A DNA stretch of 59,444 bases from NCBI GenBank assembly GCA_017860345.1, contig JAFNAV010000010.1, positions 1 through 59,444 of the forward strand, in the 5' to 3' direction. Below the pieces are notes generated by a model. That model saw only the letters and a program-made list of their open reading frames with translations. It made no database searches and was not told where the DNA came from. A program made the position numbers and the translations under genes. Positions 184-35,846 of this stretch are shown piece by piece; positions within the stretch are counted from its first letter, which is position 1; each line of letters begins with the position of its first letter. Source of the DNA: Bacteroidota bacterium (lineage in GTDB: Bacteria; Bacteroidota; Bacteroidia; Bacteroidales; Paludibacteraceae).

Positions 184-217
184 AAAAAAACGGAGTGATT
201 AACAACCACTCCGTTTT
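184..217 (-). terminator. Intrinsic terminator after gnd
   Basis: The stem pairs CGGAGTG (191-197) with CACTCCG (207-213) around a 9-base loop. On the minus strand it is followed by a run of seven T. It also has four T on the plus-strand side, so it may work in both directions. It lies 46 bases beyond the gnd stop codon and closes the minus-strand sugar-acid operon. Bases 1-183 hold no gene or structure that I recognise. Confidence 0.85.
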
Positions 218-262
218 CAGAATTTATATCAGACTCATGTTTGTCTGTTCATTATTAAAAGA

Positions 263-1717
263 CTATACCACGTAAGTTGTCGACGCTGTGTCGCCGCCAC
301 GGCCAGTCCAGTTGGTATGGAAAAATTCGCCACGCGGTTTGTCCACACGTTCGTAAGTATGCGCTCCAAAGTAGTCGCGTTGTGCCTGAAGCAGGTTAGC
401 AGGCAAGCGTTCCGAGCGGAAACCGTCGAAATAACAAAGCGCTGAAGTTAGCGCAGGCACAGGAATACCGTTGGTAAGCGCGGCAGCACATACCCGTCGC
501 CATCCAGCCTGAGCCTTTTCCACAATGTCTTTAAAATATGGGTCGAGCAACAGATTTTCAAGTGCAGGATTTTTATCAAAAGCCTTTTTGATATCTCCTA
601 AAAATACCGAACGAATAATACATCCGCCACGCCACATCAATGCTATACCTCCCAAATTCAGATTCCATCCGTTTTCCTTAGCTGCTTCCATCATCAGGTT
701 ATAGCCCTGAGCGTATGATATAATTTTTGCTCCAAACAAAGCATCTTTCAGGTCGTCAATCATTTGCTTTTTATCACCGGTAAAATGAACCGCCGGTCCG
801 CTTATTACCTTCGAAGCTTTGACACGAATATCTTTCTGCGCCGACAAGCAACGGGCAAATACCGATTCACCTATCAGCGTAAGAGGCACGCCCAAATCGA
901 GCGCCGAAACGCCAGTCCACTTCCCTGTTCCTTTCTGTCCGGCAGTATCCAGAATTTTATCTACCAAAGGCGTTCCATCTTCATCTTTCACGGCCAGAAT
1001 ATCCCGTGTAATCTCAATCAGATACGAATCCAAATCACCTTTATTCCATTCTTTGAATACTTCGTGCATTTCGTCGGCCGATAGTCCCAGCAAGTCTTTC
1101 ATAACCTGATAAGCCTCGTTAATAATCTGCATATCGCCGTACTCGATACCATTGTGTACCATTTTCACAAAATGGCCCGCACCACCTTCGCCTACCCAGT
1201 CGCAGCAGGGTGTGCCATCTTCCACTTTAGCTGCCACAGCCTGAAAAATCTCTTTCACGGCTGGCCATGCAGCTGGTGAACCACCCGGCATCATCGATGG
1301 GCCCAGCAACGCGCCTTCTTCACCGCCCGAAACTCCGGTTCCTACATAAAGTAAACCTTTGCTTTCGACGTATTTGGTACGGCGTATCGTATCCGGGAAA
1401 TGTGTATTTCCACCATCAATAATAATATCGCCCGGTTCAAGATGAGGAATCAGTTGGTCAATAAAATCGTCCACTGCCTGACCGGCCTTAACGAGCATCA
1501 TCACTTTGCGTGGTTTTTCGAGAGAATCACACAGTTCTTTCACCGAATGCGCAGCTATAAAGTTCTTGCCTGCACCACGTCCGGCTATAAATTTATCTAC
1601 TTTTTCTACCGAACGATTAAAAACTGCAACCGTAAAGCCCTTGCTTTCCATGTTCAGTACCAGATTTTCGCCCATGACGGCTAAACCAATTAAGCCAATA
1701 TCTGCTTTTTGTTTCAT
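263..1717 (-). CDS. gnd: 6-phosphogluconate dehydrogenase, decarboxylating
   Basis: This enzyme oxidises 6-phosphogluconate to ribulose 5-phosphate and CO2 and makes NADPH, in the cytoplasmic oxidative pentose phosphate pathway. The protein is 484 residues, the usual length. It has the N-terminal dinucleotide motif GLAVMGENL, the GGNTHFPDT segment, GTGVSGGEEGA, and the catalytic KMVHNGIEYGD segment with its Lys, His and Asn. An upstream in-frame start at 1747 would add ten residues before MKQKADIGLIG. I chose the ATG at 1717 because family members begin just before the Rossmann strand. It is the last gene of a minus-strand run and sits 131 bases after pdxB, so it may also have its own promoter. 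The usual partners zwf and pgl are absent, and gnd lies among uronate genes instead. Identity is very secure. Confidence 0.97.
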   Translation of the reverse strand: MKQKADIGLIGLAVMGENLVLNMESKGFTVAVFNRSVEKVDKFIAGRGAGKNFIAAHSVKELCDSLEKPRKVMMLVKAGQAVDDFIDQLIPHLEPGDIIIDGGNTHFPDTIRRTKYVESKGLLYVGTGVSGGEEGALLGPSMMPGGSPAAWPAVKEIFQAVAAKVEDGTPCCDWVGEGGAGHFVKMVHNGIEYGDMQIINEAYQVMKDLLGLSADEMHEVFKEWNKGDLDSYLIEITRDILAVKDEDGTPLVDKILDTAGQKGTGKWTGVSALDLGVPLTLIGESVFARCLSAQKDIRVKASKVISGPAVHFTGDKKQMIDDLKDALFGAKIISYAQGYNLMMEAAKENGWNLNLGGIALMWRGGCIIRSVFLGDIKKAFDKNPALENLLLDPYFKDIVEKAQAGWRRVCAAALTNGIPVPALTSALCYFDGFRSERLPANLLQAQRDYFGAHTYERVDKPRGEFFHTNWTGRGGDTASTTYVV

Positions 1718-1848
1718 GATAGTATTCAGCCTCTTAAATCGCCCCAAGGGAAACTTAAGAATGGCATTATTAAATTATTAATATTTAATTTTATGATTAC
1801 ACAATAGATTATCTGATTTTAAATTAGTATTTATCAAAAGTTTAATTT

Positions 1849-2997
1849 CTAAACTTCAATACCGCGACTGTTTGCCTCAACTTTAAATCCCAAAGCTTTT
1901 AGTTTTTCAATCGCCTGTTCATTTACATTTTTTACAATAACAGTAAAAGCCTGAAACTCCCGCCGTACAGGGTAATCGCCACGAATTTGTTCAAACAAAG
2001 CGGGATTTTTCCTGAATTCAGCATCATCATTTCTGATATCATAAGTATGCAAAACGGCTTGTGACAAGATCTGCTGTAACGTCAGCCCGCTACCATCGAT
2101 ATTTATTTCAGTTTGCACTGGTAATTCAACACCTGAAGGCCGCCAATCGTTCAATTTTAAATTAAAAAAATCACTTATAGCCTGCACGCTCATCAAAGTT
2201 CCTGTAGCTTTCCCATCCTTGGAATATCCTGCAATATGCGGAGTAGCTATGGTAGTCAAGTCCAAAAGTGCCAAATCCAAATCCGGTTCATTTTCCCAGC
2301 AATCGCAAACGAAGTCAGCTATTATTCCCTGCTTCAAAGCGCTTTTCACGGCCTGCGTCTCCACTACCTCACCACGACAAGAATTTATCAACACCGGTTT
2401 TGAACCTAACGATCTGAAAAAACTTTCATCCGCTAAATGGTAAGTAGCATCTTCGCCCTTCATATTGAGCGGAACATGCAAAGTAATAATATCTGCCTCC
2501 TGCTGAATGGTTTGCAAACTCACAAACAATCCGGAGCCTTCAGCGCGCTCGCGTGGCGGGTCATTGAGTAGCACTTTCATGCCAAAAAGCTCTGCTACGC
2601 GCGCCACTTTACTTCCCACATTGCCTACTCCCACCACACCAATTGTTTTTTCGCTCAAATTCCAACCGTATTTTTCGGCGAGCACCATCATGGTAGAGGC
2701 AATATATTGCTCCACCGATTTTGAATTACAGCCGGGAGCATTGGTCCAGCGAATACCCGCAACATCGCAATAATCGGTATCAATATGGTCGTAACCAATA
2801 GTGGCGGTGGCAATAAACTTTACCGACGAACCAGCCAGAAGTTTTTCATTGCAAATGGTACGTGTGCGTGTTACTATGGCATCGGCATCTTTAACAACTT
2901 CGGGCGTGGTTTTCGCTCCCGCAAGGTAAACAACTTCGGCCACCGGCTCAAATGCGCCGTGTATATATGGGATTTTATCGTCAATAATAATCTTCAT
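1849..2997 (-). CDS. pdxB: Erythronate-4-phosphate dehydrogenase
   Basis: PdxB oxidises 4-phosphoerythronate in the DXP-independent route to pyridoxal 5-phosphate. The 382-residue protein has the D-2-hydroxyacid dehydrogenase layout. An N-terminal half begins MKIIIDDKIPY. A Rossmann core contains GVVGVGNVGSKVA. The catalytic set is visible as the Arg in NSCRGEVV and the His in TPHIAGYS. A C-terminal extension of about 100 residues is typical of PdxB and absent from plain hydroxyacid dehydrogenases. It lies 45 bases after the Gfo/Idh gene and 131 bases before gnd. Its substrate derives from erythrose 4-phosphate, a pentose phosphate intermediate, which fits loosely with gnd next door. Identity is secure; the reason for its place among uronate genes is not known. 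Confidence 0.92.
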   Translation of the reverse strand: MKIIIDDKIPYIHGAFEPVAEVVYLAGAKTTPEVVKDADAIVTRTRTICNEKLLAGSSVKFIATATIGYDHIDTDYCDVAGIRWTNAPGCNSKSVEQYIASTMMVLAEKYGWNLSEKTIGVVGVGNVGSKVARVAELFGMKVLLNDPPRERAEGSGLFVSLQTIQQEADIITLHVPLNMKGEDATYHLADESFFRSLGSKPVLINSCRGEVVETQAVKSALKQGIIADFVCDCWENEPDLDLALLDLTTIATPHIAGYSKDGKATGTLMSVQAISDFFNLKLNDWRPSGVELPVQTEINIDGSGLTLQQILSQAVLHTYDIRNDDAEFRKNPALFEQIRGDYPVRREFQAFTVIVKNVNEQAIEKLKALGFKVEANSRGIEV

Positions 2998-3042
2998 TCG
3001 TGGATTTGCAATATTTTAGGGATTCAATATTTTATCATTTTT

Positions 3043-4044
3043 TTAAAAAGCTTTATAATAATCTTTTACGATTTCTTCCAACACCCATGACGTTCTGACT
3101 GCCGAATACATGGTGCTTACGCATGGGTTACCACCCCGCAAGGTTTCTACAACTTGTTTCACCAGATAAAAAGATATATTTTCCGGATTTTCAAAAGTAA
3201 ACTCTTCCAACTGTCCGTTTTTAATCAACTGAACCGTTCCTTTATCAAAGCAGGGAAAGCTAATCGTCCCTTCGGTACCTGTAATTTCGACAAGATCTTT
3301 TTCGCACTGTTTATCAGCAACAAAAGTCCAGTTACCCGAACCAGCAACTCCCGATTTAAACTGAAAAGCAGCAGTAACGGTATCTTCGGCTTTATAAAAT
3401 CCGGCACGGTTTACAGCCATTCCGCTTACAGTTTCCACGGAGCCAAACACAAAGTCGAGATAATCAAACTGGTGCGAAGCCAGATCATAAAAATGTCCTG
3501 CTCCTGAAATATCCGGGTTCACATGCCATGTTTGAGTATGAGGTTGACTATCACGCTCACCAAAAGCGCGGTGAAGCTGAATATGCACCGAAAGCGGATT
3601 TCCTATCACACCACTTTCTATCATATCTTTCACTTTCAGAAAAGCAGGCAATGTACGCCGGTAATAAGCCACATAAAGCGGCACACCGGTTTCTTCCGAA
3701 ACACGAATCATATCCTGACATTCCAAGAAGTTTCTCGCCATAGGTTTTTCCACATACACCGGCTTACCGGCCTTCATTGCTTGTATGGCATAAAGGGCAT
3801 GTGTATCGGGCGGTGTGGCAATATATATCGCATTAACTTCAGCGTCGTTGATCAGTTGCGAAGCATCAGCATAAAACCGTGGAACGTTATGTCTCCTTGC
3901 ATAATCTTCGGCCAGCCCGGCATTACGTCGCATAACAGCTACCAACTTGGAATGTTCTATTTTACTGAAAGCAGGGCCGCTTTTCAATTCAGTCACATTA
4001 CCACAGCCGATAATTCCCCAGTTTATATCATTCAATTTATCCAT
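3043..4044 (-). CDS. Gfo/Idh/MocA-family oxidoreductase
   Basis: This is an NAD(P)-dependent sugar or polyol dehydrogenase of the Gfo/Idh/MocA family, about 333 residues. The N-terminal Rossmann motif is WGIIGCGNVTE. The family's catalytic lysine is in YVEKPMARN at about residue 100, and the C-terminal alpha/beta domain contains GAGHFYDLASHQFDYLDF. A GTG codon at 4071 would add nine residues. The ATG at 4044 (MDKLNDINWGIIG) gives the expected spacing to the nucleotide fold, so I use it. The gene lies between the LarA-like gene and pdxB in the same direction, which suggests a sugar acid or its lactone or keto form as substrate. The substrate cannot be read from the sequence. Confidence 0.85.
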   Translation of the reverse strand: MDKLNDINWGIIGCGNVTELKSGPAFSKIEHSKLVAVMRRNAGLAEDYARRHNVPRFYADASQLINDAEVNAIYIATPPDTHALYAIQAMKAGKPVYVEKPMARNFLECQDMIRVSEETGVPLYVAYYRRTLPAFLKVKDMIESGVIGNPLSVHIQLHRAFGERDSQPHTQTWHVNPDISGAGHFYDLASHQFDYLDFVFGSVETVSGMAVNRAGFYKAEDTVTAAFQFKSGVAGSGNWTFVADKQCEKDLVEITGTEGTISFPCFDKGTVQLIKNGQLEEFTFENPENISFYLVKQVVETLRGGNPCVSTMYSAVRTSWVLEEIVKDYYKAF

Positions 4045-4139
4045 CAAAATTGTTTTTGTCAAGCTCTGCACACAATTATATCTGCATACAAAGTTAACTT
4101 ATTTGGACAATAAAGCTCGTGTAAGATTTGAAAAAGATT

Positions 4140-5429
4140 TTAATATTTAAATCTCTCACGATATGCCCACAAACCCAGTGCCGGATTGGATATATAGAAT
4201 ATTTCTTCGCCATCGGGCATTAGATTATAACCATCTTTGAGTTTTGCAGGATTATATTTTGTAGTAACAGCATCAATATCAGCATATTTAAATCCAACAC
4301 TTTCAATCTCTGCCTGAGTAAGGTGGTCAGCGCCTTTGCCCGGACAATAGGTAACACTAAAACGTCCTTCGGACGAACCGTGAATGAGGTGAGCCGCTGC
4401 ACTCAGATTGTTGCGTAGTTCTTCGTTTTCGTCGCAGGCTTTGAGGGTGGCCGGCGTGCCAAAATATCCGTATTTACGTATCAAACGGTCTATTTCCTTA
4501 TCTTCGCCAAACTCCTTAAGAGCCGGAGCAATAACTACGAGTTCACCGCCATCGTCAATAGCCATACGGGTACGGTAGATAGATTTATTGCCAAGCCAGG
4601 TACTTTTAAACTCGGTAGGATCAAGATATACCACTACCTTTTTCAGCGGTTTATCCAATAAATCAAAATTCACTTCGAGCGCTAATTTTGCTGCTTTGTC
4701 AAATACCTCATAATCATCACCTATAAACAAACCACGACATTTAATTTTGCCATCCGATTTGTCCAGACCTACCACCGTTTGCACATAAATAATAGGGAGA
4801 TGATTCGTAAAATGTTCCGAAGCGTAATTGAAAATCCTTCGCACAGGTGTATCAGCATGCCCCATCATACGTTCCATACCATAGGCAGCACCTACAAAAT
4901 GACTTTTGTTGATACCTTCCACACCACCTGTTCCCACAAAGATATTTTTGTTGTAATTAGCCATTCCCACTACTTCGTGTGGAACTACCTGACCAATAGA
5001 TAGTATTAAATCAAAATTACCCTCAATCAGTAATTTGTTCACCTGCGCAGGCCATTGAAAATCAACCGCTCCGCCCGAAACTTCTTTTACAAATTCCGAG
5101 GGCACATAACCTACGGTAACCACATCATTGCGCCAGTCGTGTTCACGAAGCAGCGAAGCCGGTAACGTCCCAAACATGTGAGCAATCTGGTGGTCAGTCA
5201 TAGGCGAGTGCGTTCCCAAAGCTGGCAACACATCAGTAAGTGCATGGCCGTAATACTGCCAGGCATATTCAGTCAATTCACCTGCACGGCTCGGCAAGCG
5301 CGTATAATCAGGCGGAATAGCGAGTACTTTATGTTTCGCCCCTAATTTGTTTAAAGCTTCGAACAAGCCTGTTTTCAAATCGTCCGACGAAAGTTCAATG
5401 TCCGTGGATCCTTTTTCGTAATAAATCAT
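4140..5429 (-). CDS. LarA-superfamily nickel-pincer 2-hydroxyacid racemase/epimerase
   Basis: This 429-residue protein belongs to the LarA (DUF2088) superfamily, which racemises or epimerises the alpha-carbon of 2-hydroxyacids using the nickel-pincer nucleotide. The key residues are all visible. DYTR (41-44) matches the DxTR motif. His74 is in ALGTHSPMT. His151, Lys161 and His177 have exactly the 10- and 26-residue spacing of LarA His174, Lys184 and His200, so cofactor attachment and nickel binding should be intact. Known family members act on lactate, malate, 2-hydroxyglutarate and gluconate. The cofactor genes larB, larC and larE are not in this window. The neighbours (sugar kinase, Gfo/Idh, gnd) argue for a sugar-acid substrate such as mannonate or gluconate, not lactate. 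That substrate is inference. Confidence 0.85.
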   Translation of the reverse strand: MIYYEKGSTDIELSSDDLKTGLFEALNKLGAKHKVLAIPPDYTRLPSRAGELTEYAWQYYGHALTDVLPALGTHSPMTDHQIAHMFGTLPASLLREHDWRNDVVTVGYVPSEFVKEVSGGAVDFQWPAQVNKLLIEGNFDLILSIGQVVPHEVVGMANYNKNIFVGTGGVEGINKSHFVGAAYGMERMMGHADTPVRRIFNYASEHFTNHLPIIYVQTVVGLDKSDGKIKCRGLFIGDDYEVFDKAAKLALEVNFDLLDKPLKKVVVYLDPTEFKSTWLGNKSIYRTRMAIDDGGELVVIAPALKEFGEDKEIDRLIRKYGYFGTPATLKACDENEELRNNLSAAAHLIHGSSEGRFSVTYCPGKGADHLTQAEIESVGFKYADIDAVTTKYNPAKLKDGYNLMPDGEEIFYISNPALGLWAYRERFKY

Positions 5430-5494
5430 GAGAATAATTATTATTTATTGATTTACCATTTACAATAATCATTAACCACAACAGGCGCTAATCT

Positions 5495-6571
5495 TTATCT
5501 CTTTACGCGGGCATTACCGCCCCATATACTCCATATTTGTTCTTCGTCGGCCGGTTGCGCATAATCGGTCAGGAAAGTCGTAGCCAATGCTCCCGATGCC
5601 CAACCAAATTGTGGCCATTGTTCCGCCGGCCAGCCCTTAAGTATCGCATAAAGTAAACCGCCAACAAAACCATCACCACCTCCAATACGATCGAGAACAT
5701 TGATCTTACGGGGCTGTATAACGTGCCAGTCTTCACCATCGAGCATGATAGCTCCCCAAAGGTGTTCGTTGGTGCTAATTACCTGACGCAAGGTAGTAGC
5801 ATAAACCGATGCATTAGGGAAAGCTGCCTTTACACGGCCAATCATTCCTTTAAAGCCTTCTATTTCAGCTTCAATACCTTTTCCCCCTGCTTCTGGACCC
5901 TCTATACCCAGACAGAGCTGGAAATCTTCTTCGTTACCAATAAGAATATCGGATACAGAAGCAATTTCAGTAAAAATATCGCGCAATTCCTGTTCGCGAC
6001 CTTTCCAAAACGAAGCCCGGTAATTCAGGTCAAAAGAAATGCGGGTACCCGTTTTTTTTGCGTAGCGAGCCAGTTGCAGGCAAAATTCGCTTGTTTCGGG
6101 CGATAAAGCACCTATCAAACCAGATAAATGTAAGATCTGAACACCTTCTTTGACAAAAAGTTTTTCGAGATCGAAATCCTTTACATTAAGAGTTCGTCCA
6201 ACTTCGCCGGCGCGGTCGTTGAGTACCCGTGGACCGCGCGTACCGAATCCACTGTCGGCAATATTGAACTGATGCCGGTATCCCCACGGATCGCCCTGAG
6301 CTACTTCAGGACCTTCAAAATCCATATTTCTGCTGCGAAGGTCTGATTTAATCAATTGGGCAATAGGGCTGTCTTTTACAAAAGTAGTAAGAACTTTAAC
6401 CGGGAGCCCCAGAAAAGAGGAGATACTCGCCACATTGGTTTCGGCGCTGGTAGCCTGCATTTCGAAAAGTTTACTGCTATGAACAGGTTGTCCGTTCACA
6501 GGTGTAATTCTGATTCCCATACTGGTAGCCACCATCAGGGAATATCGGTAATCGTTTTTTAGTGTTATCAT
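5495..6571 (-). CDS. PfkB-family sugar (sugar-acid) kinase, KdgK paralogue
   Basis: This 358-residue ribokinase/PfkB kinase is probably specific for a C6 sugar acid. The C-terminal signature IGGGDGFVGG carries the anion-hole glycines and the catalytic Asp. ISFDLNYRASFW and ILIGNEEDF match the equivalent segments of the kdgK product at 13226-14251 (VSVDLNFRKKLW, VCIGNEEDA), so the two are paralogues in one locus. The N-terminus is less typical, because MITLKNDYRYSLMVATSMG replaces the usual short start before the first glycine motif. It is the first gene after the terminator at 6624-6668 and lies 65 bases before the LarA-like gene. It may be a second 2-keto-3-deoxygluconate kinase or phosphorylate another hexonate. 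Sequence alone does not decide. Confidence 0.85.
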   Translation of the reverse strand: MITLKNDYRYSLMVATSMGIRITPVNGQPVHSSKLFEMQATSAETNVASISSFLGLPVKVLTTFVKDSPIAQLIKSDLRSRNMDFEGPEVAQGDPWGYRHQFNIADSGFGTRGPRVLNDRAGEVGRTLNVKDFDLEKLFVKEGVQILHLSGLIGALSPETSEFCLQLARYAKKTGTRISFDLNYRASFWKGREQELRDIFTEIASVSDILIGNEEDFQLCLGIEGPEAGGKGIEAEIEGFKGMIGRVKAAFPNASVYATTLRQVISTNEHLWGAIMLDGEDWHVIQPRKINVLDRIGGGDGFVGGLLYAILKGWPAEQWPQFGWASGALATTFLTDYAQPADEEQIWSIWGGNARVKR

Positions 6572-6623: not shown

Positions 6624-6668
6624 TTCAAAAAAAACAGTAAAGCCCCCTTGCGGGAAATTCAGGGGGCT
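6624..6668 (-). terminator. Terminator between uxuA and the sugar kinase gene
   Basis: The stem pairs AGCCCCC (6641-6647) with GGGGGCT (6662-6668). On the minus strand it is followed, after TTACTG, by a run of eight T. It sits 8 bases after the uxuA stop. It should end or reduce transcription from the uxaE-SDR-uxuA group, so the kinase-LarA-Gfo/Idh-pdxB-gnd group probably has its own promoter in 6572-6620 or depends on readthrough. Confidence 0.8.
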
Positions 6669-6675
6669 ACTTATT

Positions 6676-7845
6676 TTAAAACAATGTTTTTGAAATTCCA
6701 AGTTCAAGTCCACGTAATTCAGCAAGACCTTTAAGGCGACCTATGGCCGAATATCCCGGATTGGTCTTCTTGTGTAAATCGTCGAGCATTTGGTGACCAT
6801 GATCGGGACGAACGGGAATATTACGTTTGAAGGTATATTCTACCACAAGTAAAGCCTTCATAGCTTCGTACATATCCACATCACTGTCCAGATGATCAGC
6901 TTCATAAAAATCGCCATCGGCATTACGTTTAGTACCCCTAAGGTGTGCAAAGTAAATACGTTCGCCAAATTCTCTAATCATTTCAGGAATATTATTGTCG
7001 GCCGAAACACCCAGCGAACCGGCGCAGAGGCAAAGTCCGTTGCATTTCAGAGGAACAGCCTTAAACAATTTACGAATATCTTCAGCATTACTCAAAATTC
7101 GGGGTAAACCAAAAATTGCACGTGGCGGATCATCCGGATGTATGGCCAGCGTAACCCCTTCTTCTTCGGCAACAGCCGATATTTCGTTGATAAAATAAAA
7201 CAGGTTATTTCTCAGTTCCGTTTCGTTAATATCTTTATAAGCATCCAAAGCAGCCTGAAATTGTGTAAGGTTGAAGCTCTCTTCAGCTCCGGGCAATCCT
7301 GCAATGATATTACGCGTTAAAGTTTCAATCTCTTTTTCACTCATTTTATCGAAACGAGCTTTGGCCTTGGAAATCTGATCAACCGTGTAATCATCTTCAG
7401 CACCTGGACGTTTCAGGATATATAAATCAAAAGCTACAAAAGCAGCCATTTCGAAATGCAAAGCCCTCGAACGATCAGGTAACTCATAAGCCAAATCAGT
7501 TCTTGTCCAGTCCAACACGGGCATAAAATTATAAGTTACAATACGAATATCACAAGCAGCCAGATTTCGGATGGTTTGTTTGTAATTATCAATGTATTGT
7601 TTATAATTTCCGGCACGTTTTTTAATATCCTCATGCACAGGAACGCTTTCCACTACCGACCATTTCAATCCGGCTTCGGCAATCATCCGTTTGCGAAACT
7701 GAATAGCATCAACCGGCCATATTTCGCCATTTGGAATGTGATGCAAAGCTGTAACCACATCAGTAACACCAGCCTGACGAATGTCCCACAATGATACAGG
7801 GTCGTTTGGTCCGTACCATCTCCACGATTGTTTACATAAATACAT
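6676..7845 (-). CDS. uxuA: D-mannonate dehydratase
   Basis: UxuA removes water from D-mannonate to give 2-keto-3-deoxy-D-gluconate, using a divalent metal such as Mn2+ in a TIM-barrel fold. The protein is 389 residues, the family length. It starts with the typical [21 protein letters not shown] segment and contains [28 protein letters not shown], the metal-site segments LAIHPDDPP and RPDHGHQM, and the C-terminal [13 protein letters not shown]. It lies between the SDR gene, which supplies mannonate, and the terminator at 6624-6668. The 162 bases between it and the SDR gene show no clear structure. Its product feeds KdgK. Identity is very secure. Confidence 0.97.
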
Positions 7846-8007: not shown

Positions 8008-8820
8008 TTAAATGCAAAATGCGTCAAAGCCACCATCAATTACTGTAAGCGTACCAGTTACAAACTTAGAAGCATCGCTGGCTAACCAATGCAGTGTACC
8101 CAACAATTCTTCCGGTTCGCCAAAACGGGCAAAGGGCGTATGAGCAATAATGGTATTGCCGCGTGCTGTAAGCGAGCCATCAGAATTGGTCAATAAAGCC
8201 CGGTTTTGTTCCGATATAAAGAAACCCGGGGCGAAAGCGTTAACACGCAAACCTTCTCCAAATTTTGTCGCCAGTTCAATTGCCAGATACTTTGTAAAGT
8301 TCGTTACAGCAGCTTTGGCAGCTCCGTATCCTACAACGCGTGTAAGCGGACGCAGTGCTGACTCCGACGAAATATTGATTATGTTACCGGCTTTCTGTTC
8401 AGCCATTATTTTAGCAAATACCATAGTCGGAATTACTGTACCGAAAAGATTGAGATCCACTACCTTTTTAAAAGCATCCACATCCAAATCGAAAATGGTT
8501 TTATCCGGTCCGATGGTAGCTCCCGGCTGATTACCCCCTGCTCCATTTACAAGCACATCTACTCTACCGTATTTTTCCATTATTTCAGCTGCATTTTTTT
8601 CAACCACAGCCTTATCATTCACGTCCGATTGATAGAAACTGGCTTCGTAACCTTTGGCTTTCAAACTATCAACCAACTGATTGCCTTTTTCTTTATTGCG
8701 CGCCAGAACAGCCACTTTCGCACCCTGCTCAGCCAGATATTCCACCATACAAGCGCCCAACACTCCCGTACCACCGGTAACTACAATCACACGGTTTTTA
8801 ATATCAAATAGGTTTCTCAT
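8008..8820 (-). CDS. SDR-family D-mannonate oxidoreductase (fructuronate reductase)
   Basis: This 270-residue short-chain dehydrogenase has the classical cofactor motif TGGTGVLG (15-22), NGAGGN near residue 93, the catalytic Ser in ISSESA and the YGAAK catalytic pair in the 160s. SDRs beside uxuA in Bacteroidota and Thermotoga act as fructuronate reductases, making D-mannonate from fructuronate with NAD(P)H, in place of the long-chain UxuB of enterobacteria. No other UxuB candidate is in the window, so this gene is needed to complete the path between UxaE and UxuA. It starts at 8820, 69 bases after uxaE, in the same operon. The reaction is inferred from context; the family is certain. Confidence 0.88.
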   Translation of the reverse strand: MRNLFDIKNRVIVVTGGTGVLGACMVEYLAEQGAKVAVLARNKEKGNQLVDSLKAKGYEASFYQSDVNDKAVVEKNAAEIMEKYGRVDVLVNGAGGNQPGATIGPDKTIFDLDVDAFKKVVDLNLFGTVIPTMVFAKIMAEQKAGNIINISSESALRPLTRVVGYGAAKAAVTNFTKYLAIELATKFGEGLRVNAFAPGFFISEQNRALLTNSDGSLTARGNTIIAHTPFARFGEPEELLGTLHWLASDASKFVTGTLTVIDGGFDAFCI

Positions 8821-8889: not shown

Positions 8890-10137
8890 TCACAAATTAA
8901 ATAATCTTTTAAAATGCCTGTCGTAGATATTTTCTTCTACACACCGGCCAATAATATCTGCATGTTTTTCGAGCAGTATTACATATTTTTCGCCCATATC
9001 GGCCGCCAGTTTGTACGACACATGTATCAGCTGTCTGAAATTTGAATTATAATCAGGATGTCCCGGAATATGACGCAAGGTATTGGCATATTTTTCACCT
9101 GTCCAGCCATTTACTTCATCCACCGATGGTAATTTGGCTCCATCGATATCGATAACATCGGCATAAGGGGCACACAATTCTTCACGTCGTCCAAAAGCAC
9201 CGGCATAAATCTCTTTAGCACAAGCCAAACCATCGCCGCCAGCCATTGCCAGTCCAATCACCTCTTCGAGCCATGTGGTACCAGCTGTTTTCAGGTGTAT
9301 ACCTTTATCATGTTTTTTGATAATATCTGCCATGATAGGATAAATTGAAAACTTATCACTACCTGAGTGAACACTGAGCTTCAGCTCTTCGGGCAAGCCG
9401 AATTCTTTCACCGCGTAGTCGATAACCAGTACATCCGATTCAAATTCCTTTGCAAACTGCACCAAATCACCCCGGTAATCAACACCTTTATTAAACCTGC
9501 CGGTAAATTTTGGTGCAATAGTTTGTGCCGGCACTCCTTTGTCGGCAAGCATTTTCAGTATAAATAAAAGATATACAGGAGTCTGCGGACTTTCAACTTC
9601 GTCCATCGATACTTCGGTAACAAAATTGCCAGCGCCTTTATGTTCAACCAGATACTTATAAATTTCAGAGGCTTGCTGCGTAGCCACCAAAAATTTCGAT
9701 GCTATTTCTACAAGCAATTCTTTGGTAACAACCAAAGGTTCGGCAATACCAGGCACTTTCAGTTGACCCAGATACCGGGTGCACGAAGCCACAAACGCAT
9801 CCACATCGGCTTGCGAACTGGGCTTACCTATAAAAGCAGCCACATCCAGAGTAAAAAAATCGGCAGTTTCGACAAACGGAGCTACCGTAGTGAGATTAAT
9901 ATGATCGGCATCAACAAAATACTTACCCTTATAACCGAGAGCAGCCACTGCTGCGTCGGCCTCTTTGCGTACATCAGCAGGATGTGAGTGAACATATATA
10001 TGTTCTCTGTTCGACTTGTTCCAAACCGGACTAATTTCCAATCCGCGTTCATTGGCTTTCATAATGGCGCGCAACTGCGCTTCTCCCTGGTGAGCAAAAC
10101 GGTCGCCCACACCGATACTGTACTTTGCTAACTTCAT
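8890..10137 (-). CDS. uxaE: Tagaturonate epimerase
   Basis: UxaE converts D-tagaturonate, made from galacturonate by UxaC, to D-fructuronate, so galacturonate joins the glucuronate branch without a separate altronate path. The 415-residue protein matches this family in length and overall sequence: an N-terminal YSIGVGDRFAHQGEAQL segment, an acidic middle region with FVTEVSMDE, KFTGRFNKGVDYRGD, SVHSGSDKFSIYPI and a His-rich C-terminal part, RHIPGHPDYNSNFRQLIH. No altronate dehydrogenase (UxaB) or dehydratase (UxaA) is present, which is expected when UxaE is used. It follows the LacI gene by 43 bases, so regulator and enzyme are probably co-transcribed. Confidence 0.9.
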   Translation of the reverse strand: MKLAKYSIGVGDRFAHQGEAQLRAIMKANERGLEISPVWNKSNREHIYVHSHPADVRKEADAAVAALGYKGKYFVDADHINLTTVAPFVETADFFTLDVAAFIGKPSSQADVDAFVASCTRYLGQLKVPGIAEPLVVTKELLVEIASKFLVATQQASEIYKYLVEHKGAGNFVTEVSMDEVESPQTPVYLLFILKMLADKGVPAQTIAPKFTGRFNKGVDYRGDLVQFAKEFESDVLVIDYAVKEFGLPEELKLSVHSGSDKFSIYPIMADIIKKHDKGIHLKTAGTTWLEEVIGLAMAGGDGLACAKEIYAGAFGRREELCAPYADVIDIDGAKLPSVDEVNGWTGEKYANTLRHIPGHPDYNSNFRQLIHVSYKLAADMGEKYVILLEKHADIIGRCVEENIYDRHFKRLFNL

Positions 10138-11678: not shown

Positions 11679-13085
11679 ATGAAGAACTTTTTAGATGAAA
11701 ACTTTCTGCTACAGACCGAAACTGCCCAAAAACTCTACCATGATCATGCTGCCAAGCAACCTATCATCGACTATCACTGTCATTTAATACCATCTATGGT
11801 GGCTAATGACCATCAGTTTAAATCGCTAACCGAAATATGGCTGGGCGGCGACCACTATAAATGGCGCGCTATGCGTACAAACGGTATTGATGAACGTTAT
11901 TGTACCGGAAAAGATACTTCGGATTGGGAAAAATTTGAGAAATGGGCTGAAACCGTTCCTTACACCATGCGTAATCCTTTGTATCACTGGACTCATCTGG
12001 AACTTAAAACTGCTTTTGGCATCGAAAAAATTCTTTCGCCAAAAACAGCCCGCGAGATATACGAAGAATGTACTGCTAAACTTCAGACTCCGGAATATTC
12101 AGCACGCAATCTGATGCGTCATTATAATGTTGAGGCTGTTTGTACCACCGACGATCCTGTAGATACTCTGGAGCACCACATCAAAACTAAAAACGATGGT
12201 TTTGAAATAAAAATGCTTCCTACATGGCGCCCTGACAAGGCTATGGCAGTAGAGAGCGCATCCGGTTTCAGAGCCTATGTTGAGCAATTGGCCTCGGTAT
12301 CAGGCGTAGGTATTTCTACATTCGACGATATGATTACCGCACTGCGTAAACGTCAGGATTTCTTTGCTGAGCTCGGCTGTAAATTATCCGACCACGGTAT
12401 CGAAGAGTTCTATGCCGAAGATTATACCGAGGCCGAAATCAAAGCTATCTTCAACAAAATTTATGGAGGAACTGAACTGACATACGATGAGATACTGAAA
12501 TTTAAATCGGCTATGATGGTAATCTTTGCCGAAATGGACTGGGAAAAAGGCTGGACACAACAGTTCCACTACGGAGCTATCCGTAACAACAACACCCGCC
12601 TGTTCAACCAGTTAGGCCCCGACACGGGTTTCGATTCAATTGGCACATTCAATACAGCCAAAGCCATGTCGAAATTCTTGAACCGGTTAGATACTAACAA
12701 CAAGTTAGCCAAAACCATACTTTACAACCTGAATCCTGCCGATAACGAAATGATCGCTACCATGATTGGTAATTTCCAGGATGGAACTGTAGCCGGAAAA
12801 ATTCAGTTTGGTTCCGGATGGTGGTTCCTCGATCAAAAAGATGGCATGGAGAAACAAATGAACTCCCTGTCGGTATTAGGACTGCTCAGCCGATTTGTAG
12901 GTATGCTTACCGATTCACGTAGCTTTTTGTCGTATCCTCGTCACGAGTACTTCCGTCGCACCCTTTGCAATCTGTTGGGCAACGATGTGGAACAAGGACT
13001 GCTTCCGCATCAGGAACTTGAGTTTATCGGTAAAATGGTGGAAGACATTAGTTATAACAACGCCAAGAACTTCTTTAATTTCTGA
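11679..13085 (+). CDS. uxaC: Glucuronate/galacturonate isomerase
   Basis: UxaC interconverts D-glucuronate with D-fructuronate and D-galacturonate with D-tagaturonate, the first cytoplasmic step of the pathway. The 468-residue protein has the amidohydrolase-related metal motif PIIDYHCHL near residue 31, the segment ICTTDDPVDTLEHH-like VCTTDDPVDTLEHH, a second His-rich stretch WTQQFHYGAIRNNN, and the C-terminal LGLLSRFVGMLTDSRSFLSYPRHEYFRR that is strongly conserved in the family. It is the first plus-strand gene after the divergent regulatory region and is followed after 140 bases by kdgK. Length and all motifs are normal. Confidence 0.97.
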   Translation: MKNFLDENFLLQTETAQKLYHDHAAKQPIIDYHCHLIPSMVANDHQFKSLTEIWLGGDHYKWRAMRTNGIDERYCTGKDTSDWEKFEKWAETVPYTMRNPLYHWTHLELKTAFGIEKILSPKTAREIYEECTAKLQTPEYSARNLMRHYNVEAVCTTDDPVDTLEHHIKTKNDGFEIKMLPTWRPDKAMAVESASGFRAYVEQLASVSGVGISTFDDMITALRKRQDFFAELGCKLSDHGIEEFYAEDYTEAEIKAIFNKIYGGTELTYDEILKFKSAMMVIFAEMDWEKGWTQQFHYGAIRNNNTRLFNQLGPDTGFDSIGTFNTAKAMSKFLNRLDTNNKLAKTILYNLNPADNEMIATMIGNFQDGTVAGKIQFGSGWWFLDQKDGMEKQMNSLSVLGLLSRFVGMLTDSRSFLSYPRHEYFRRTLCNLLGNDVEQGLLPHQELEFIGKMVEDISYNNAKNFFNF

Positions 13086-13225: not shown

Positions 13226-14251
13226 ATGAGTAAGAAAATTGTAACATTAGGAGAGATTATGCTCCGTTTGTCAACTCCGGGTAACACACGCTTTGTTCAA
13301 TCGGATGTATTTGATGTTGTTTATGGTGGCGGTGAAGCCAATGTAGCTGTGAGTTGCGCAAACTACGGACATGATGCTTATTTTGTAACAAAGTTGCCCA
13401 AACATGAAATTGGACAATCAGCTGTAAATGCTTTACGCAAATACGGCGTTAAAACAGATTTTATCGCACGCGGTGGCGACAGAGTAGGTATTTATTATCT
13501 CGAAACCGGTGCCTCAATGCGTCCGAGTAAAGTTATTTACGACCGCGCTCACTCTGCCATTGCCGAAGCAGGTATTTCCGATTTCGACTTTGATGCTATT
13601 ATGAAAGGAGCCGACTGGTTTCACTGGTCAGGAATTACCCCTGCCATCTCGGATACAGCTGCCGAATTAACTAAATTAGCTTGCGAAGCAGCCAAACGTC
13701 ACGGTGTAACTGTATCTGTTGACTTAAATTTCCGTAAAAAACTCTGGACAAAAGAGAAAGCTCAGTCTATTATGCGTCCTTTAATGCAGTACGTAGATGT
13801 ATGTATTGGCAACGAAGAAGATGCAGAACTATGTTTAGGATTTAAGCCCGATGCCGATGTAGAAGCCGGACATACCGATGCTGAAGGATACAAAGGTATC
13901 TTTACACAAATGGCTAAAGAGTTTGATTTTAAATATGTGATATCAACATTGCGTGAATCGTTCTCGGCAAGCCATAACGGTTGGAAAGCCATGATTTACG
14001 ATGGAAAAGAATTTTACACTTCAAAACGTTACGATATCAACCCGATTATCGACCGTGTAGGTGGTGGCGACTCTTTCTCGGGCGGTGTAATTCATGGTTT
14101 GCTTACAAAACCTAATCAGGGAGAAGCTTTAGAATTTGCTGTAGCTGCATCAGCCTTGAAACACACTGTGAACGGTGATTTCAATCTGGTATCGATAGAA
14201 GAAGTAGAAGCTTTAGCAGGTGGCGACTCCAGCGGTAGGGTACAACGATAA
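13226..14251 (+). CDS. kdgK: 2-dehydro-3-deoxygluconate kinase
   Basis: KdgK phosphorylates 2-keto-3-deoxygluconate to KDPG with ATP. The protein has 341 residues and the PfkB fold: GGGEANVAVSCANYG near residue 34, VSVDLNFRKKLW, VCIGNEEDAELCLG, and the C-terminal anion-hole and catalytic signature RVGGGDSFSGG. A short Gly-rich tail (GGDSSGRVQR) follows the last helix. It is immediately upstream of kdgA and the transporter, an order that supports this substrate. The paralogue at 5495-6571 is more divergent and lies outside this group, so this copy is the better kdgK candidate. The 141-base gap to kdgA holds an inverted repeat. Confidence 0.94.
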   Translation: MSKKIVTLGEIMLRLSTPGNTRFVQSDVFDVVYGGGEANVAVSCANYGHDAYFVTKLPKHEIGQSAVNALRKYGVKTDFIARGGDRVGIYYLETGASMRPSKVIYDRAHSAIAEAGISDFDFDAIMKGADWFHWSGITPAISDTAAELTKLACEAAKRHGVTVSVDLNFRKKLWTKEKAQSIMRPLMQYVDVCIGNEEDAELCLGFKPDADVEAGHTDAEGYKGIFTQMAKEFDFKYVISTLRESFSASHNGWKAMIYDGKEFYTSKRYDINPIIDRVGGGDSFSGGVIHGLLTKPNQGEALEFAVAASALKHTVNGDFNLVSIEEVEALAGGDSSGRVQR

Positions 14252-14257
14252 AAAACA

Positions 14258-14377
14258 CCCCTAAACCCTCAGGGGGAATCGGAAGCAGGTAATTATGCAA
14301 TTAGAATTTCATAAATTTACCACAGGTATAAATTTTAAAATACTAACATCTCTTTTCTCTGCTTAGAGTTTAGGGGT
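14258..14377. repeat. Inverted repeat in the kdgK-kdgA gap
   Basis: ACCCCTAAAC near 14258-14267 is the reverse complement of GTTTAGGGGT near 14367-14376, about 100 bases apart and filling most of the 141-base gap. The first copy continues into a small CCCTCAGGGG hairpin. CCCCTAAA...-type strings are often seen between genes in Bacteroidota. This could be a remnant of a small mobile repeat or an RNA structure between two co-transcribed genes. No open frame lies inside it. Confidence 0.5.
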
Positions 14378-14392
14378 TAATACAATAAAAAT

Positions 14393-15058
14393 ATGCGTTT
14401 TTCAAAAATTCAAGTTCTCACCGTAATGAAAGAAACAGGCATGATACCTGTTTTCTATCATAGCGATGTTGAAATTGCAAAAAAAGTAGTTAAAGCATGC
14501 TACGACGGTGGCGTTCGTGCTTTTGAATTTACCAACCGTGGCGACTTTGCACACGAAGTATTCCGCGATTTAGTTAAATTCACAACTAAAGAGTGCCCTG
14601 AAATGATAATGGGTATTGGTTCAATTGTTGATGCGCCTACAGCAGTACTTTATATTCAGATGGGAGCCAACTTCATTGTAGGTCCACTGTTTAACCCGGA
14701 GGTAGCCAAAGTAGCCAACCGCCGCTTAGTACCATATGCTCCGGGCTGCGGCTCGGTATCGGAAGTAGGCTTTGCACAAGAAGCCGGCTGCGATGTTTGC
14801 AAAGTATTCCCCGGCGATGTACTTGGTACTGGTTTCGTAAAAGGATTGAAAGCGCCTATGCCATGGTCGAACCTGATGGTAACCGGTGGCGTAAAACCCG
14901 AAGAAGCCAACCTGAAAGGCTGGTTTGATGCCGGTGTAACCTGTGTAGGAATGGGCTCGAACCTTTTCCCGGCCGATTTAATAAAATCGGGCGACTGGGC
15001 AGGTATCACCAAACTTTGCAGTGATGCTCTTGAAATTATACAGAAAATAAAAAAATAA
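14393..15058 (+). CDS. kdgA: KDPG aldolase (bifunctional KHG/KDPG aldolase type)
   Basis: This enzyme cleaves 2-keto-3-deoxy-6-phosphogluconate to pyruvate and glyceraldehyde 3-phosphate, the last step of the uronate pathway. The 221-residue class I aldolase shows AFEFTNRGD in the place of the family's Glu motif, [24 protein letters not shown], the Schiff-base lysine in DVCKVFPGD, and [20 protein letters not shown]. It ends three bases before the transporter start, so the two are surely co-transcribed. This is the eda/kdgA type usual in Bacteroidota. Confidence 0.95.
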
Positions 15059-32484: not shown

Positions 32485-32492
32485 TACCTTTG
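32485..32492 (+). promoter_or_regulatory. -7 box of the TetR gene
   Basis: TACCTTTG is a perfect TAnnTTTG match, with a TTG at 32467-32469 as possible -33. It overlaps a TTG codon at 32490 that would otherwise look like an in-frame start, which is the main reason to place the TetR start at the ATG 32511. Confidence 0.6.
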
Positions 32493-32510
32493 CATCACAA
32501 AATAAATAAA

Positions 32511-33131
32511 ATGGATTCGGTATCTGAACAAATAACATCAACAGCCTTCAAACTATTTCTGCAACGCGGTATTCGCAATGTTACAATTGACGAAATATGC
32601 TCTGAACTGCACATCTCAAAAAAAACCTTTTACAGCCATTTTCCTCAAAAGGAAGATTTGGTAGCCGCTATAATCACATCAGAAGAAAAACAAAACTACG
32701 AAAAAACCATAAAGAATCTCAAAAACAAGAACGCTATTGATGCATTGATTTATATCGTGAAAGAAATAAAGAAAAATGTAGACTGCCAGCCTTTTATGTT
32801 ATGGCACGATGTGGCCAAATACTACCCGAAGGTATTTGAAACATTTCAGAATAAGCGTAAAGAGAAAATAAAAGATGGATTTGAGCAGAACCTGATGCAG
32901 GGAATTGCCGAAGGTTATTACAGAGATGACCTTGATATAGAGTTGACATCGCTGTTTCATATGGTTCAGATTAAAAACTCGTTTGAGATGATGGAGCAAT
33001 CGCCGAAAAAAATTACCAAAAAGCGTTTGCTTAATTTTTTCATCGATTTAATGATGCACCTGATTGTAAACGAAAAAGGATTGAAATATCTGAATGAGCA
33101 CTATCACAATGAAAATGTAAAAGAAAATTGA
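32511..33131 (+). CDS. TetR-family transcriptional regulator of the efflux operon
   Basis: This 206-residue regulator has an N-terminal TetR helix-turn-helix (AFKLFLQRGIRNVTIDEICSELHISKKTFYSHFPQKEDL, about residues 11-49) and an all-helical ligand and dimer domain. The start at 32511 is fixed by the overlapping promoter at 32485-32492. It lies 144 bases upstream of the TolC-like gene in the same direction and probably represses the pump until a toxic ligand binds. The 33132-33274 gap contains repeated TTATCG/CGATAA strings that could be its operator. Confidence 0.9.
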   Translation: MDSVSEQITSTAFKLFLQRGIRNVTIDEICSELHISKKTFYSHFPQKEDLVAAIITSEEKQNYEKTIKNLKNKNAIDALIYIVKEIKKNVDCQPFMLWHDVAKYYPKVFETFQNKRKEKIKDGFEQNLMQGIAEGYYRDDLDIELTSLFHMVQIKNSFEMMEQSPKKITKKRLLNFFIDLMMHLIVNEKGLKYLNEHYHNENVKEN

Positions 33132-33180
33132 GATACATATTTCATCATTATAACTAAAAAACGGTCATTCATCGGTTTTT

Positions 33181-33234
33181 TTATCGGGTTTATCGATTTC
33201 TTTTTATTGTTTTTCGATAATCAAACTATTTTTG
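33181..33234 (+). promoter_or_regulatory. Efflux operon promoter with possible TetR operator
   Basis: TATTTTTG at 33227-33234 matches the -7 box, with TTGT at 33207-33210 as possible -33. TTATCG at 33181-33186 and CGATAA at 33215-33220 form an inverted pair around the -33 element, with another TTATCGAT copy between them (about 33190-33197). This is a plausible TetR binding region but the half-sites are short. Confidence 0.45.
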
Positions 33235-33274
33235 CAACATAAAAAATGAACAAAGAAATATTACTAAAAGAAAT

Positions 33275-34744
33275 ATGAGAAAGATTGTGAAACTATTTAA
33301 TTTAAAAATGTTTGCTACCGGCATGGCTCTTGTTTGCCTGTCTCCTGTAGCTATGGGGCAAGACACCATCAAACTGTCGTTGTCGAAAGCTATTGAAATA
33401 GCATTAAGCGAGAACCCTACGATTAAAGTTGCCGAAAAAGAAATTCAACGGGTAAATTACTCTAAAAAAGAACGTTTGGGCGGCTTGTTGCCTAATGTAT
33501 CGTTAAGCGGTACTTATCAACGGGCTTTAAAAAAGCAGAAAATGTATTTGGATGGATTTAATATGTCTAATATGTTTTCTCCTGTTTTATCTTATGCTTT
33601 GGAACAAACAATTATTCAGAACCCTCCTACTCCAAGTGTTATTGAAGCACAGGAGGCATATGAACAAGCTGCAAATAGTGGAGATGGAAGTATTGAAGTA
33701 GGTAGAGATAATACTTTTACAGCAGGGTTGAATGCCACGTTGCCTATTATAGCACCGAGCCTTTGGGCTACGCTCCACCTGAGCGAAATGGAACTTGAAA
33801 TGAGTCAGGAATCGGCGCGCTCGTCTAAAATATCGCTCTACAATCAGGTTACCAAAACCTACTACAGCATTCTGATGATGCAGGACTCATACGACGTGAT
33901 AAAACGCAGTTATGAGAACACCCTCGAAAATGCCAAGATTATCCTGAATAAATACAAACAGGGTACGGTCTCGGAATACGAATGGATACGGGCCGATGTA
34001 CAGGTCAAAAGCGCTCAGAGCAATCTGGTATCGGCCGAAAGTGCTGTGCAAATAAGTAAACTTCAGTTGAAAATGCTTTTGGGCATAGATAGTTACAACG
34101 AAATATCAGTAGAAGGCAAACTCTCGGATTTTGAGTCGACCATGTATGGCGATGTAATGAAAATAGATACTACCACGATGCAAAACAATTCGGATCTGAA
34201 GCAGTTCGATATTCAGAAAAAACAACTTGAGCAGAACGAAAAAATTCATAAAGCTTCGCTTCTACCCACGCTGTCAACATCAATTAATTATCAATACATG
34301 TCGATGGCCAACGACGATATAACATTTAGCAAAGATCAGGTATGGTTTCCTACCTCATCGTTAGGTGTTACACTCGCAGTTCCTTTGTTTCAGGGTGGTG
34401 CTAAATATTACAAGGGGAAACAGATTAAACTACAGCTGTCTGAGCTAAACGACCAGCGCGAAAACCTTAAAAGAAGCATTGAAACCCAGGTACTTTCTTC
34501 AATCGAGAACATAAAAAAATCTTTGAAAAAGATTGAATCGAACAAAGATGGAGTTCGCCAGGCCGAGAAAGCGCTTAACATTTCGCAAAAGATGTACGAA
34601 GTTGGGGTGGCCACTTATCTGGATTTGAGCAATGCCGAACTGGCTTACGTAAATGCAGGTTTAACCTACAATCAATCAATTTATGATTACCTGTCGGCAA
34701 AAGCCGATCTCGAAAAACTTTTAGGAAAAGAATTCAACAAATAA
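33275..34744 (+). CDS. TolC-family outer-membrane efflux protein
   Basis: This 489-residue outer-membrane factor has a signal peptide (ending VAMGQ) and two repeats of the TolC fold starting at SKAIEIALSENPTIKVAEKEI and again near residue 290. Long amphipathic helices and the late YEVGVATYLDLSNAELAYVNAGLTYNQSIYDYLSAKADLEKLLG segment are typical of the family. It forms the exit channel for the RND pump encoded downstream. The membrane-fusion protein gene starts 29 bases later. Confidence 0.93.
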   Translation: MRKIVKLFNLKMFATGMALVCLSPVAMGQDTIKLSLSKAIEIALSENPTIKVAEKEIQRVNYSKKERLGGLLPNVSLSGTYQRALKKQKMYLDGFNMSNMFSPVLSYALEQTIIQNPPTPSVIEAQEAYEQAANSGDGSIEVGRDNTFTAGLNATLPIIAPSLWATLHLSEMELEMSQESARSSKISLYNQVTKTYYSILMMQDSYDVIKRSYENTLENAKIILNKYKQGTVSEYEWIRADVQVKSAQSNLVSAESAVQISKLQLKMLLGIDSYNEISVEGKLSDFESTMYGDVMKIDTTTMQNNSDLKQFDIQKKQLEQNEKIHKASLLPTLSTSINYQYMSMANDDITFSKDQVWFPTSSLGVTLAVPLFQGGAKYYKGKQIKLQLSELNDQRENLKRSIETQVLSSIENIKKSLKKIESNKDGVRQAEKALNISQKMYEVGVATYLDLSNAELAYVNAGLTYNQSIYDYLSAKADLEKLLGKEFNK

Positions 34745-34773
34745 GAAATTAAAAAAAACAACAAGGTATAGAT

Positions 34774-35799: not shown

Positions 35800-35846
35800 T
35801 TTTACAAAAAAAGTAAAGAATTTAAATTCAAAAAAAAGACTAAATT

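Follow-up and report, generated by a model that had tools for sequence, protein, structure and literature searches.

A probable mannonate-to-6-phosphogluconate shunt at a Bacteroidales uronate locus and its nickel-cofactor gap

The contig JAFNAV010000010.1 (assembly GCA_017860345.1) of a Bacteroidota bacterium from the family Paludibacteraceae, 59,444 nucleotides long and referred to below as the window, carries next to a set of uronate genes five genes for a PfkB-family sugar kinase, a protein of the LarA superfamily, a Gfo/Idh/MocA oxidoreductase, PdxB and the 6-phosphogluconate dehydrogenase Gnd. Gnd is normally encoded together with zwf and pgl, which are absent from this locus. The original prediction, made from the sequence of the window, was that the LarA-like protein interconverts D-mannonate and D-gluconate and that the kinase phosphorylates gluconate to 6-phosphogluconate. 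All five genes were found on the minus strand where they had been placed, and their families were matched by both Pfam and NCBIfam. From the genes, their families, conserved residues, linkage and co-occurrence, which are observed directly, we infer all the substrates, the order of epimerase before kinase and the role of PdxB. The locus is probably a uronate branch point, at which the five-gene unit takes mannonate through gluconate and 6-phosphogluconate to ribulose 5-phosphate. That it encodes a shunt from mannonate to 6-phosphogluconate, whichever of the two steps comes first, we consider highly probable.

In the proposed route, UxaC, UxaE and a short-chain dehydrogenase/reductase (SDR) would convert galacturonate or glucuronate to D-mannonate, from which two branches would lead. 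By the first, UxuA, 2-keto-3-deoxygluconate (KDG) kinase and aldolase would yield pyruvate and glyceraldehyde 3-phosphate. By the second, the LarA-like protein, a member of group 18 of the LarA homologs (LarAH18) carrying the nickel-pincer nucleotide (NPN), would invert C2 of mannonate to give gluconate, the PfkB kinase would convert gluconate to 6-phosphogluconate, and Gnd would oxidize and decarboxylate the latter to ribulose 5-phosphate, feeding the pentose phosphate pathway. The NADPH that had been expected from Gnd would not be a net gain if the upstream reductase consumes NADPH: the SDR and the second branch together would be approximately redox-neutral, and the equivalent route of Lactobacillus suebicus is termed redox-cofactor-neutral (PMC6978723).

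The LarA-like protein and the kinase

The LarA-like protein matched the NF052594 model, 'nickel-dependent putative hexonate epimerase', with 654 bits at a cut-off of 500. The closest solved structure was 4nar, both by profile and by predicted fold; all 19 Foldseek matches of the AlphaFold model (pLDDT 86) at E<=0.001 were LarA-family structures, with 4nar at the top. In 97 aligned group-18 rows, which include two identical pairs, residues R44, H74, H151, K161 and H177 are invariant and align with the residues of 4nar and 2yjg that correspond to the NPN-binding, nickel-binding and catalytic positions of LarA. E152, V153 and W278 are invariant in the same rows and correspond to the signature of groups 18-20, composed of a loop E-V/S and a helix W (PMC7583248), the W278 position being taken from sequence alignment only. 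The 4nar structure is that of GntE2, the mannonate/gluconate epimerase of Thermotoga (PMC7583248). Activity on D-mannonate was shown for groups 19 and 20 (GntE1 and GntE2), and for group 18 a hexonate substrate was hypothesised (Desguin et al. 2020, PMC7583248). We propose that the group-18 protein of the window is a nickel-pincer hexonate 2-epimerase.

By profile and by predicted fold, the nearest solved relative of the kinase is the KDG kinase of T. maritima (2afb). Of 78 aligned rows, at least 77 keep the sequence FDLN(Y/H/F)RA(S/T)FW and 74 keep GGGDGF. A DLN-aromatic-R-x-x-aromatic/Leu-W motif, presumably holding the carboxylate of the sugar, is common to the kinase, 2afb and the window's own KDG-type kinase. 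For this protein, whose fold and motif are KDG-kinase-like, we propose the role of a gluconate (or mannonate) 6-kinase. In three carrier genomes (G022, G038 and G074), the slot of the kinase between the SDR and the LarAH gene is occupied by a PfkA-family enzyme (NF010675) together with a HAD-fold protein, for which no NCBIfam match was found in the two proteins tested. Replacement of the kinase by one of another family is expected if a hexonate kinase is needed. Whether LguH of Luteolibacter sets a precedent for hexonate kinases of the PfkA family was considered and answered in the negative: it is annotated as a KDG kinase, and no statement that it is of the PfkA type was found (PMC12632266).

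The same shunt could run in the reversed order, the kinase phosphorylating mannonate and the LarA-like protein acting as a 6-phosphomannonate 2-epimerase. Both activities were shown in extracts of L. suebicus (PMC6978723), and in most loci the SDR and larAH genes flank that of the kinase. Moreover, H350, G351, S352, E354, R356 and F357 are invariant in group 18, and GntE2 differs in that stretch, which could reflect a different substrate. However, the positive charges of the 350-356 stretch are shifted and not increased in comparison to GntE2, so that a phosphate site is not indicated, and PMC6978723 does not identify the L. suebicus epimerase gene. We favour epimerase before kinase because the LarA homologs whose activities we found described act on free, unphosphorylated hydroxyacids, and regard the reversed order as unlikely.

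Linkage and genome profiles

Linkage was analyzed in the 80 nearest named loci among the matches listed, a set with 75-90% identity that is biased to close kin. Upstream of LarAH, in the 62 loci with at least 4.5 kb of sequence on that side, the PfkB kinase was found in 60, the SDR in 59 and uxuA in only 10. Downstream, in the 47 loci with at least 5.5 kb, gnd was found in 44, pdxB in 42 and the Gfo/Idh gene in 28. The conserved order is SDR-kinase-LarAH-(Gfo)-(PdxB)-Gnd. Two of the three loci without gnd downstream (L079 and L081) carry it between the kinase and LarAH, and in the third, L051, gnd was not found near LarAH. A rearranged order, SDR-kinase-gnd-LarAH, occurs in L074, L076, L079 and L081, which keep the four core genes; Gfo and PdxB were not found in these four loci. 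The mannonate oxidoreductase subfamily also includes the SDRs of L094, L103 and L105, carriers that are more distant. A lack of conserved linkage in relatives would have refuted the original prediction; the linkage is conserved. As a separate observation, the kinase and LarAH of L051 (8922-11287), a record titled Phycisphaerales, are 80-85% identical to those of the window and are nested among Bacteroidota on the tree, by horizontal transfer or by a binning error.

Of 119 Bacteroidales genomes, 17 (the carriers) had an NF052594 match over the cut-off, and these were compared with 16 genomes without such a match; among 14 control genomes, two gave matches, none of them over the cut-off. The Gnd of the window matched TIGR00873 with 763 bits (cut-off 427), and each of the four active-site motifs of Gnd is conserved in 74-76 rows of an alignment of 76. 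Full-length Gnd was present in 16 of the 17 carriers and in none of the 16 other genomes, the operon of the 17th carrier (G074) being interrupted by the end of its contig. The kinase, at 70% identity or more, was found in 13 carriers (in G096 in two pieces) and a PfkA-like relative, at E<=1e-60, in four, so that 16 of the 17 carriers have one or the other; neither was found in the 16 non-carriers. Fisher tests gave 5.1e-06 for PfkB and 1.5e-08 both for Gnd and for the presence of either kinase, values that are rough since the genomes are related. Together with the conserved linkage, these profiles support the predicted core, in which mannonate would be converted via 6-phosphogluconate to ribulose 5-phosphate.

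A uxuA match was absent from 10 of the 17 carriers, indicating that these organisms may use the LarAH branch as a main way out for mannonate. Five carriers that are 98-100% complete (G022, G038, G058, G108 and G112) have Gnd and match neither zwf nor uxuA. Unless the assemblies hide these genes, 6-phosphogluconate would not come from Zwf in the five genomes, nor would mannonate leave via UxuA, and the shunt would account for both gaps. The argument from Gnd without zwf, as put forward in the original prediction, holds for these five carriers but not for the remainder, as zwf was found in 12 of the 17 (and in 2 of the 16 non-carriers). The window genome itself (G000, 86% complete) has a zwf gene adjoining a pgl-like gene (PF01182) on another contig (C15:92998-94467), with no gnd nearby; the absence of zwf and pgl is therefore true of the locus but not of the genome. 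Since the only TIGR00873 match of this genome is the Gnd of the five-gene unit, that enzyme would also serve the ordinary oxidative pathway.

Three further observations concern the same genes. Besides the uxuA of the window, its genome contains another match over the cut-off (G000:C43:19605-20765). Two genomes without LarAH18, G004 (C33) and G019 (C71), carry a short Gnd-like gene adjoining zwf that falls below the cut-off for full-length Gnd. A broken second copy of gnd, in two fragments of which one has an internal stop, lies just downstream of an intact gnd in L106:6427-7264 (G118:C9:25468-26248).

Several observations weigh against the shunt. The presence of uxuA over the cut-off does not separate carriers (7/17) from non-carriers (6/16), and the search for mannonate exits covered UxuA but not ManD-type dehydratases, another exit being possible where UxuA is unmatched. 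In the 12 carriers with zwf, Gnd also has Zwf, the usual source of its substrate. One carrier (G006) has neither type of kinase. In four others (G007, G043, G108 and G112) the kinase does not adjoin LarAH, and its neighbours scarcely point to a pathway except in G007, where it lies about 31 kb from LarAH on the same contig, adjoining a KDG-type kinase. Gnd is apart from LarAH in G064, PdxB is elsewhere in 4 of the 17 carriers, and two of the 62 loci (L033 and L070) have neither kinase nor SDR upstream. The control Bacteroides ihuae matches the zwf and gnd models and not LarAH18, and the link to Gnd is thus not general in Bacteroidales. Furthermore, we know of no PfkB gluconate kinase, and no assayed group-18 enzyme was found in the open-licence literature searched, which was partly covered.

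In a different reading, the substrate of LarAH18 would be another hexonate or an aldarate within the uronate network, and Gnd and PdxB would be mere pentose-phosphate housekeeping. For GntE1, which belongs to a sister group, the Km for mannonate is very high and other sugar acids were suggested as substrates (PMC7583248), and in most zwf-positive carriers the operon Gnd is the only full-length one and so would be needed anyway. This leaves unexplained, however, both the presence of Gnd without Zwf in the five genomes that lack uxuA and the company that the kinase keeps with LarAH18, and we consider it improbable, more so than the reversed order of steps.

PdxB and the layout of the locus

PdxB of the window matched NF001309 with 469 bits (cut-off 434) and contains the DUF3410 domain. 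The best PdxB match adjoins Gnd in 13 of the 17 carriers, including G064, in which a pdxB-gnd pair stands away from the LarAH locus. In Bacillus subtilis, 4-phosphoerythronate inhibits GndA and poisons the cpgA mutant when it is grown on either glucose or gluconate (PMC6449344). Expression of E. coli PdxB improves the growth of this mutant, which its authors, who name PdxB an erythrose 4-phosphate dehydrogenase, attribute to a lower level of 4-phosphoerythronate (PMC12445079). PdxB may accordingly protect Gnd by clearing its inhibitor while serving vitamin B6 synthesis. The supply of erythrose 4-phosphate for PdxB, proposed in the original prediction, is possible, but removal of 4-phosphoerythronate explains the adjacency of the two genes better. 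The likeness is to the proofreading by CpgA of B. subtilis and Pho13 of yeast, which remove the same Gnd-inhibiting metabolite (PMC6449344), with the difference that here a dehydrogenase of B6 synthesis encoded beside Gnd would do so. The Gfo/Idh protein matched no NCBIfam model above the cut-off, and we propose that it is an accessory, optional member of the unit.

Two hairpins flank the five genes (6668-6624 and 218-186; Table 1), suggesting that the stretch from the kinase to gnd may form a single transcription unit. The terminator predicted between uxuA and the kinase can be read in the sequence as a full stem followed by a T-run, of which the terminator scan listed the inner part only. 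Over 12 kb the scan gave 14 terminator-like sites, little above the 11.4 found in shuffled sequences, and hairpins alone are therefore weak proof. The true starts of gnd and of the Gfo/Idh gene are likely the ATG codons near 1717 and 4044, respectively. Upstream of the unit are uxuA, the SDR, uxaE and a LacI-type regulator gene, followed in divergent orientation by uxaC, a KDG-type kinase, a KHG/KDPG aldolase and a major facilitator superfamily (MFS) transporter. UxaE matched no NCBIfam model at E<=0.001 despite its Pfam match. Scans for tRNA genes and Rfam families gave no matches in the window. Farther along (32490-38972), the gene of a TetR-type regulator precedes those of an outer-membrane efflux protein, a membrane-fusion protein and an AcrB-type pump in the window, an ordinary-looking resistance-nodulation-division (RND) efflux set.

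Table 1. Features of the uronate locus in the window, and the alternative occupants of the kinase slot in three other loci
Feature	Position	Strand	Basis
Terminator-like hairpin 3' of gnd	186..218	-	15-pair stem, then T-rich tail
Gnd, NADP-dependent 6-phosphogluconate dehydrogenase	263..1747	-	TIGR00873
PdxB, 4-phosphoerythronate dehydrogenase	1849..2997	-	NF001309, PF11890
Gfo/Idh/MocA oxidoreductase, optional member	3043..4071	-	PF01408/PF22725
LarA-superfamily protein, group 18; proposed nickel-pincer hexonate 2-epimerase (mannonate to gluconate)	4140..5429	-	NF052594
PfkB-family sugar kinase, KDG-kinase-like; proposed gluconate (or mannonate) 6-kinase	5495..6571	-	PF00294
Terminator-like hairpin, boundary of the uxuA and kinase units	6624..6668	-	Stem AGCCCCC/GGGGGCT, then T-run
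UxuA mannonate dehydratase, competing mannonate exit	6676..7845	-	TIGR00695, 569 bits
SDR, mannonate oxidoreductase subfamily; proposed fructuronate to mannonate	8008..8820	-	NF006132, 378 bits (cut-off 281)
UxaE tagaturonate epimerase	8890..10137	-	PF16257
UxaC uronate isomerase	11679..13085	+	PF02614, NF002794
KDG-type PfkB kinase and KHG/KDPG aldolase, Entner-Doudoroff-type branch	13226..15058	+	PF00294 (kinase), PF01081 (aldolase)
PfkA-family enzyme and HAD-fold protein replacing the PfkB kinase	L095:9542-11882, L096:9331-11575, L097:5677-7904		

Cofactor supply and relation to known routes

LarB, LarC and LarE were found over their cut-offs in an identical set of 11 of the 33 genomes, 10 of the 17 carriers and 1 of the 16 others. 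None of the three was over the cut-off in the other seven carriers, namely G000 and six genomes that are 93-100% complete (G022, G058, G072, G074, G096 and G108), which also weighs against the proposed route. Sub-cut-off LarB matches, mostly to the C-terminal half, look like PurE. In one genome without LarAH18, LarB, LarC and LarE are all encoded on one contig (G016:C402). The reverse of the gap seen in the carriers, LarB/C/E without LarA, was reported previously (PMC11796402).

The gap was also seen in a search for LarC alone in 50 named carriers of unstated completeness, two of which apparently repeat G002 and G072: LarC was found in 19 and not in 31. Among named isolates, L056, L058, L059, L060, L062 and L069 lack a LarC match and L043, L052, L068 and L080 have one; those without LarC include Mariniphaga anaerophila DSM 26910 and Tangfeifania diversioriginum DSM 27063, cultured according to their record titles. 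A quick tree built from 67 rows of group 18 requires 14 changes of the LarC state, starred branches forcing at least 8 of them, and the LarAH of the window falls within a starred clade of 13 rows, all without LarC. Assembly gaps are unlikely as the general cause of the missing genes, given the identical set of genomes, the LarC-less clade and the 97-100% completeness of five of the seven lacking carriers, G096 (93%) and G000 being the two below 97%.

The families of open reading frames near 37 LarC-negative and 29 LarC-positive loci were compared, with flanks that differ in length. No transporter or other family was convincingly enriched in the LarC-negative flanks (best case 5 vs 0, p 0.06), and an uptake gene nearby was therefore rejected as the explanation of cofactor supply. 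Kinase, SDR, Gnd and LarAH are retained equally in both groups, whereas uxaC, the aldolase and the MFS transporter are somewhat rarer in the LarC-negative flanks (uncorrected p 0.013-0.029). The Gfo/Idh gene was considered as a marker of cofactor-less operons and rejected, as it is present in 19/37 LarC-negative and 13/29 LarC-positive loci.

When Gnd decarboxylates its substrate, the C2 carbon of the hexonate ends up as C1 in ribulose 5-phosphate and its stereochemistry is lost. The missing genes could thus be explained if the epimerase were bypassed, mannonate being phosphorylated and 6-phosphomannonate used by Gnd directly, with LarAH18 dispensable where the cofactor is not made. This fits the chemistry of decarboxylation and would resolve the lack of LarB/C/E in 7 of the 17 genomes. 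However, LarAH18 is intact and keeps all catalytic residues in the genomes without LarB/C/E, and the Gnd active-site motifs that were checked, which we take to be its substrate motifs, are ordinary and conserved. Such a bypass is very improbable. Returning to the epimerase-dependent shunt, we suggest only tentatively that many Bacteroidales, including that of the window, run a nickel-pincer epimerase at a central point of uronate breakdown without a known cofactor route: NPN may be a vitamin-like nutrient obtained from neighbouring microbes or may be made by unrecognized genes, or group 18 may be NPN-independent. Nothing on carriers without cofactor genes was found in the open-licence literature, as far as it was covered.

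The idea of the shunt is a variant of routes already known or proposed and is not new; the evidence for its conservation is new. A conversion of mannonate via gluconate to 6-phosphogluconate was proposed for Thermotoga (Rodionova 2012, via PMC6978723), where the epimerase gene lies between those of fructuronate reductase and gluconate kinase, and GntE2 of T. maritima, a LarA-type epimerase active on mannonate, was described as probably letting mannonate enter the pentose phosphate pathway (PMC7583248). In contrast, the epimerase of the present loci is assigned by sequence to group 18, the kinase is of the PfkB type or PfkA-like and not an annotated gluconate kinase, Gnd and PdxB share the unit, and in many cases no cofactor genes were found. 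The galacturonate fermentation of L. suebicus also leads from mannonate through 6-phosphogluconate to Gnd, with UxaC, UxaE and UxuB as the upper enzymes, but there the kinase-then-epimerase sequence was shown in extracts and its genes were not identified (Valk et al. 2020, PMC6978723), whereas the present route is predicted from genes. To the NF052594 family, whose model the window protein passes and whose function is annotated as 'putative', our analysis contributes the genomic context, the partner kinases and the gap in cofactor genes. A search of the open-licence literature, partly covered, gave nothing on this locus, whether under the Bacteroidota gene set, a mannonate or phosphomannonate kinase, LarA genomes or NPN salvage.

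If the proposed shunt operates, a substrate would be suggested for LarA group 18, and candidate genes would be at hand for the mannonate-to-6-phosphogluconate step known biochemically in L. suebicus. A set of uronate-using Bacteroidales could then supply the pentose phosphate pathway with neither Zwf nor UxuA. The supply of the cofactor is the most interesting part of the finding: the missing LarB, LarC and LarE make the uptake of NPN from other microbes a testable question, for which cultured LarC-negative strains exist.

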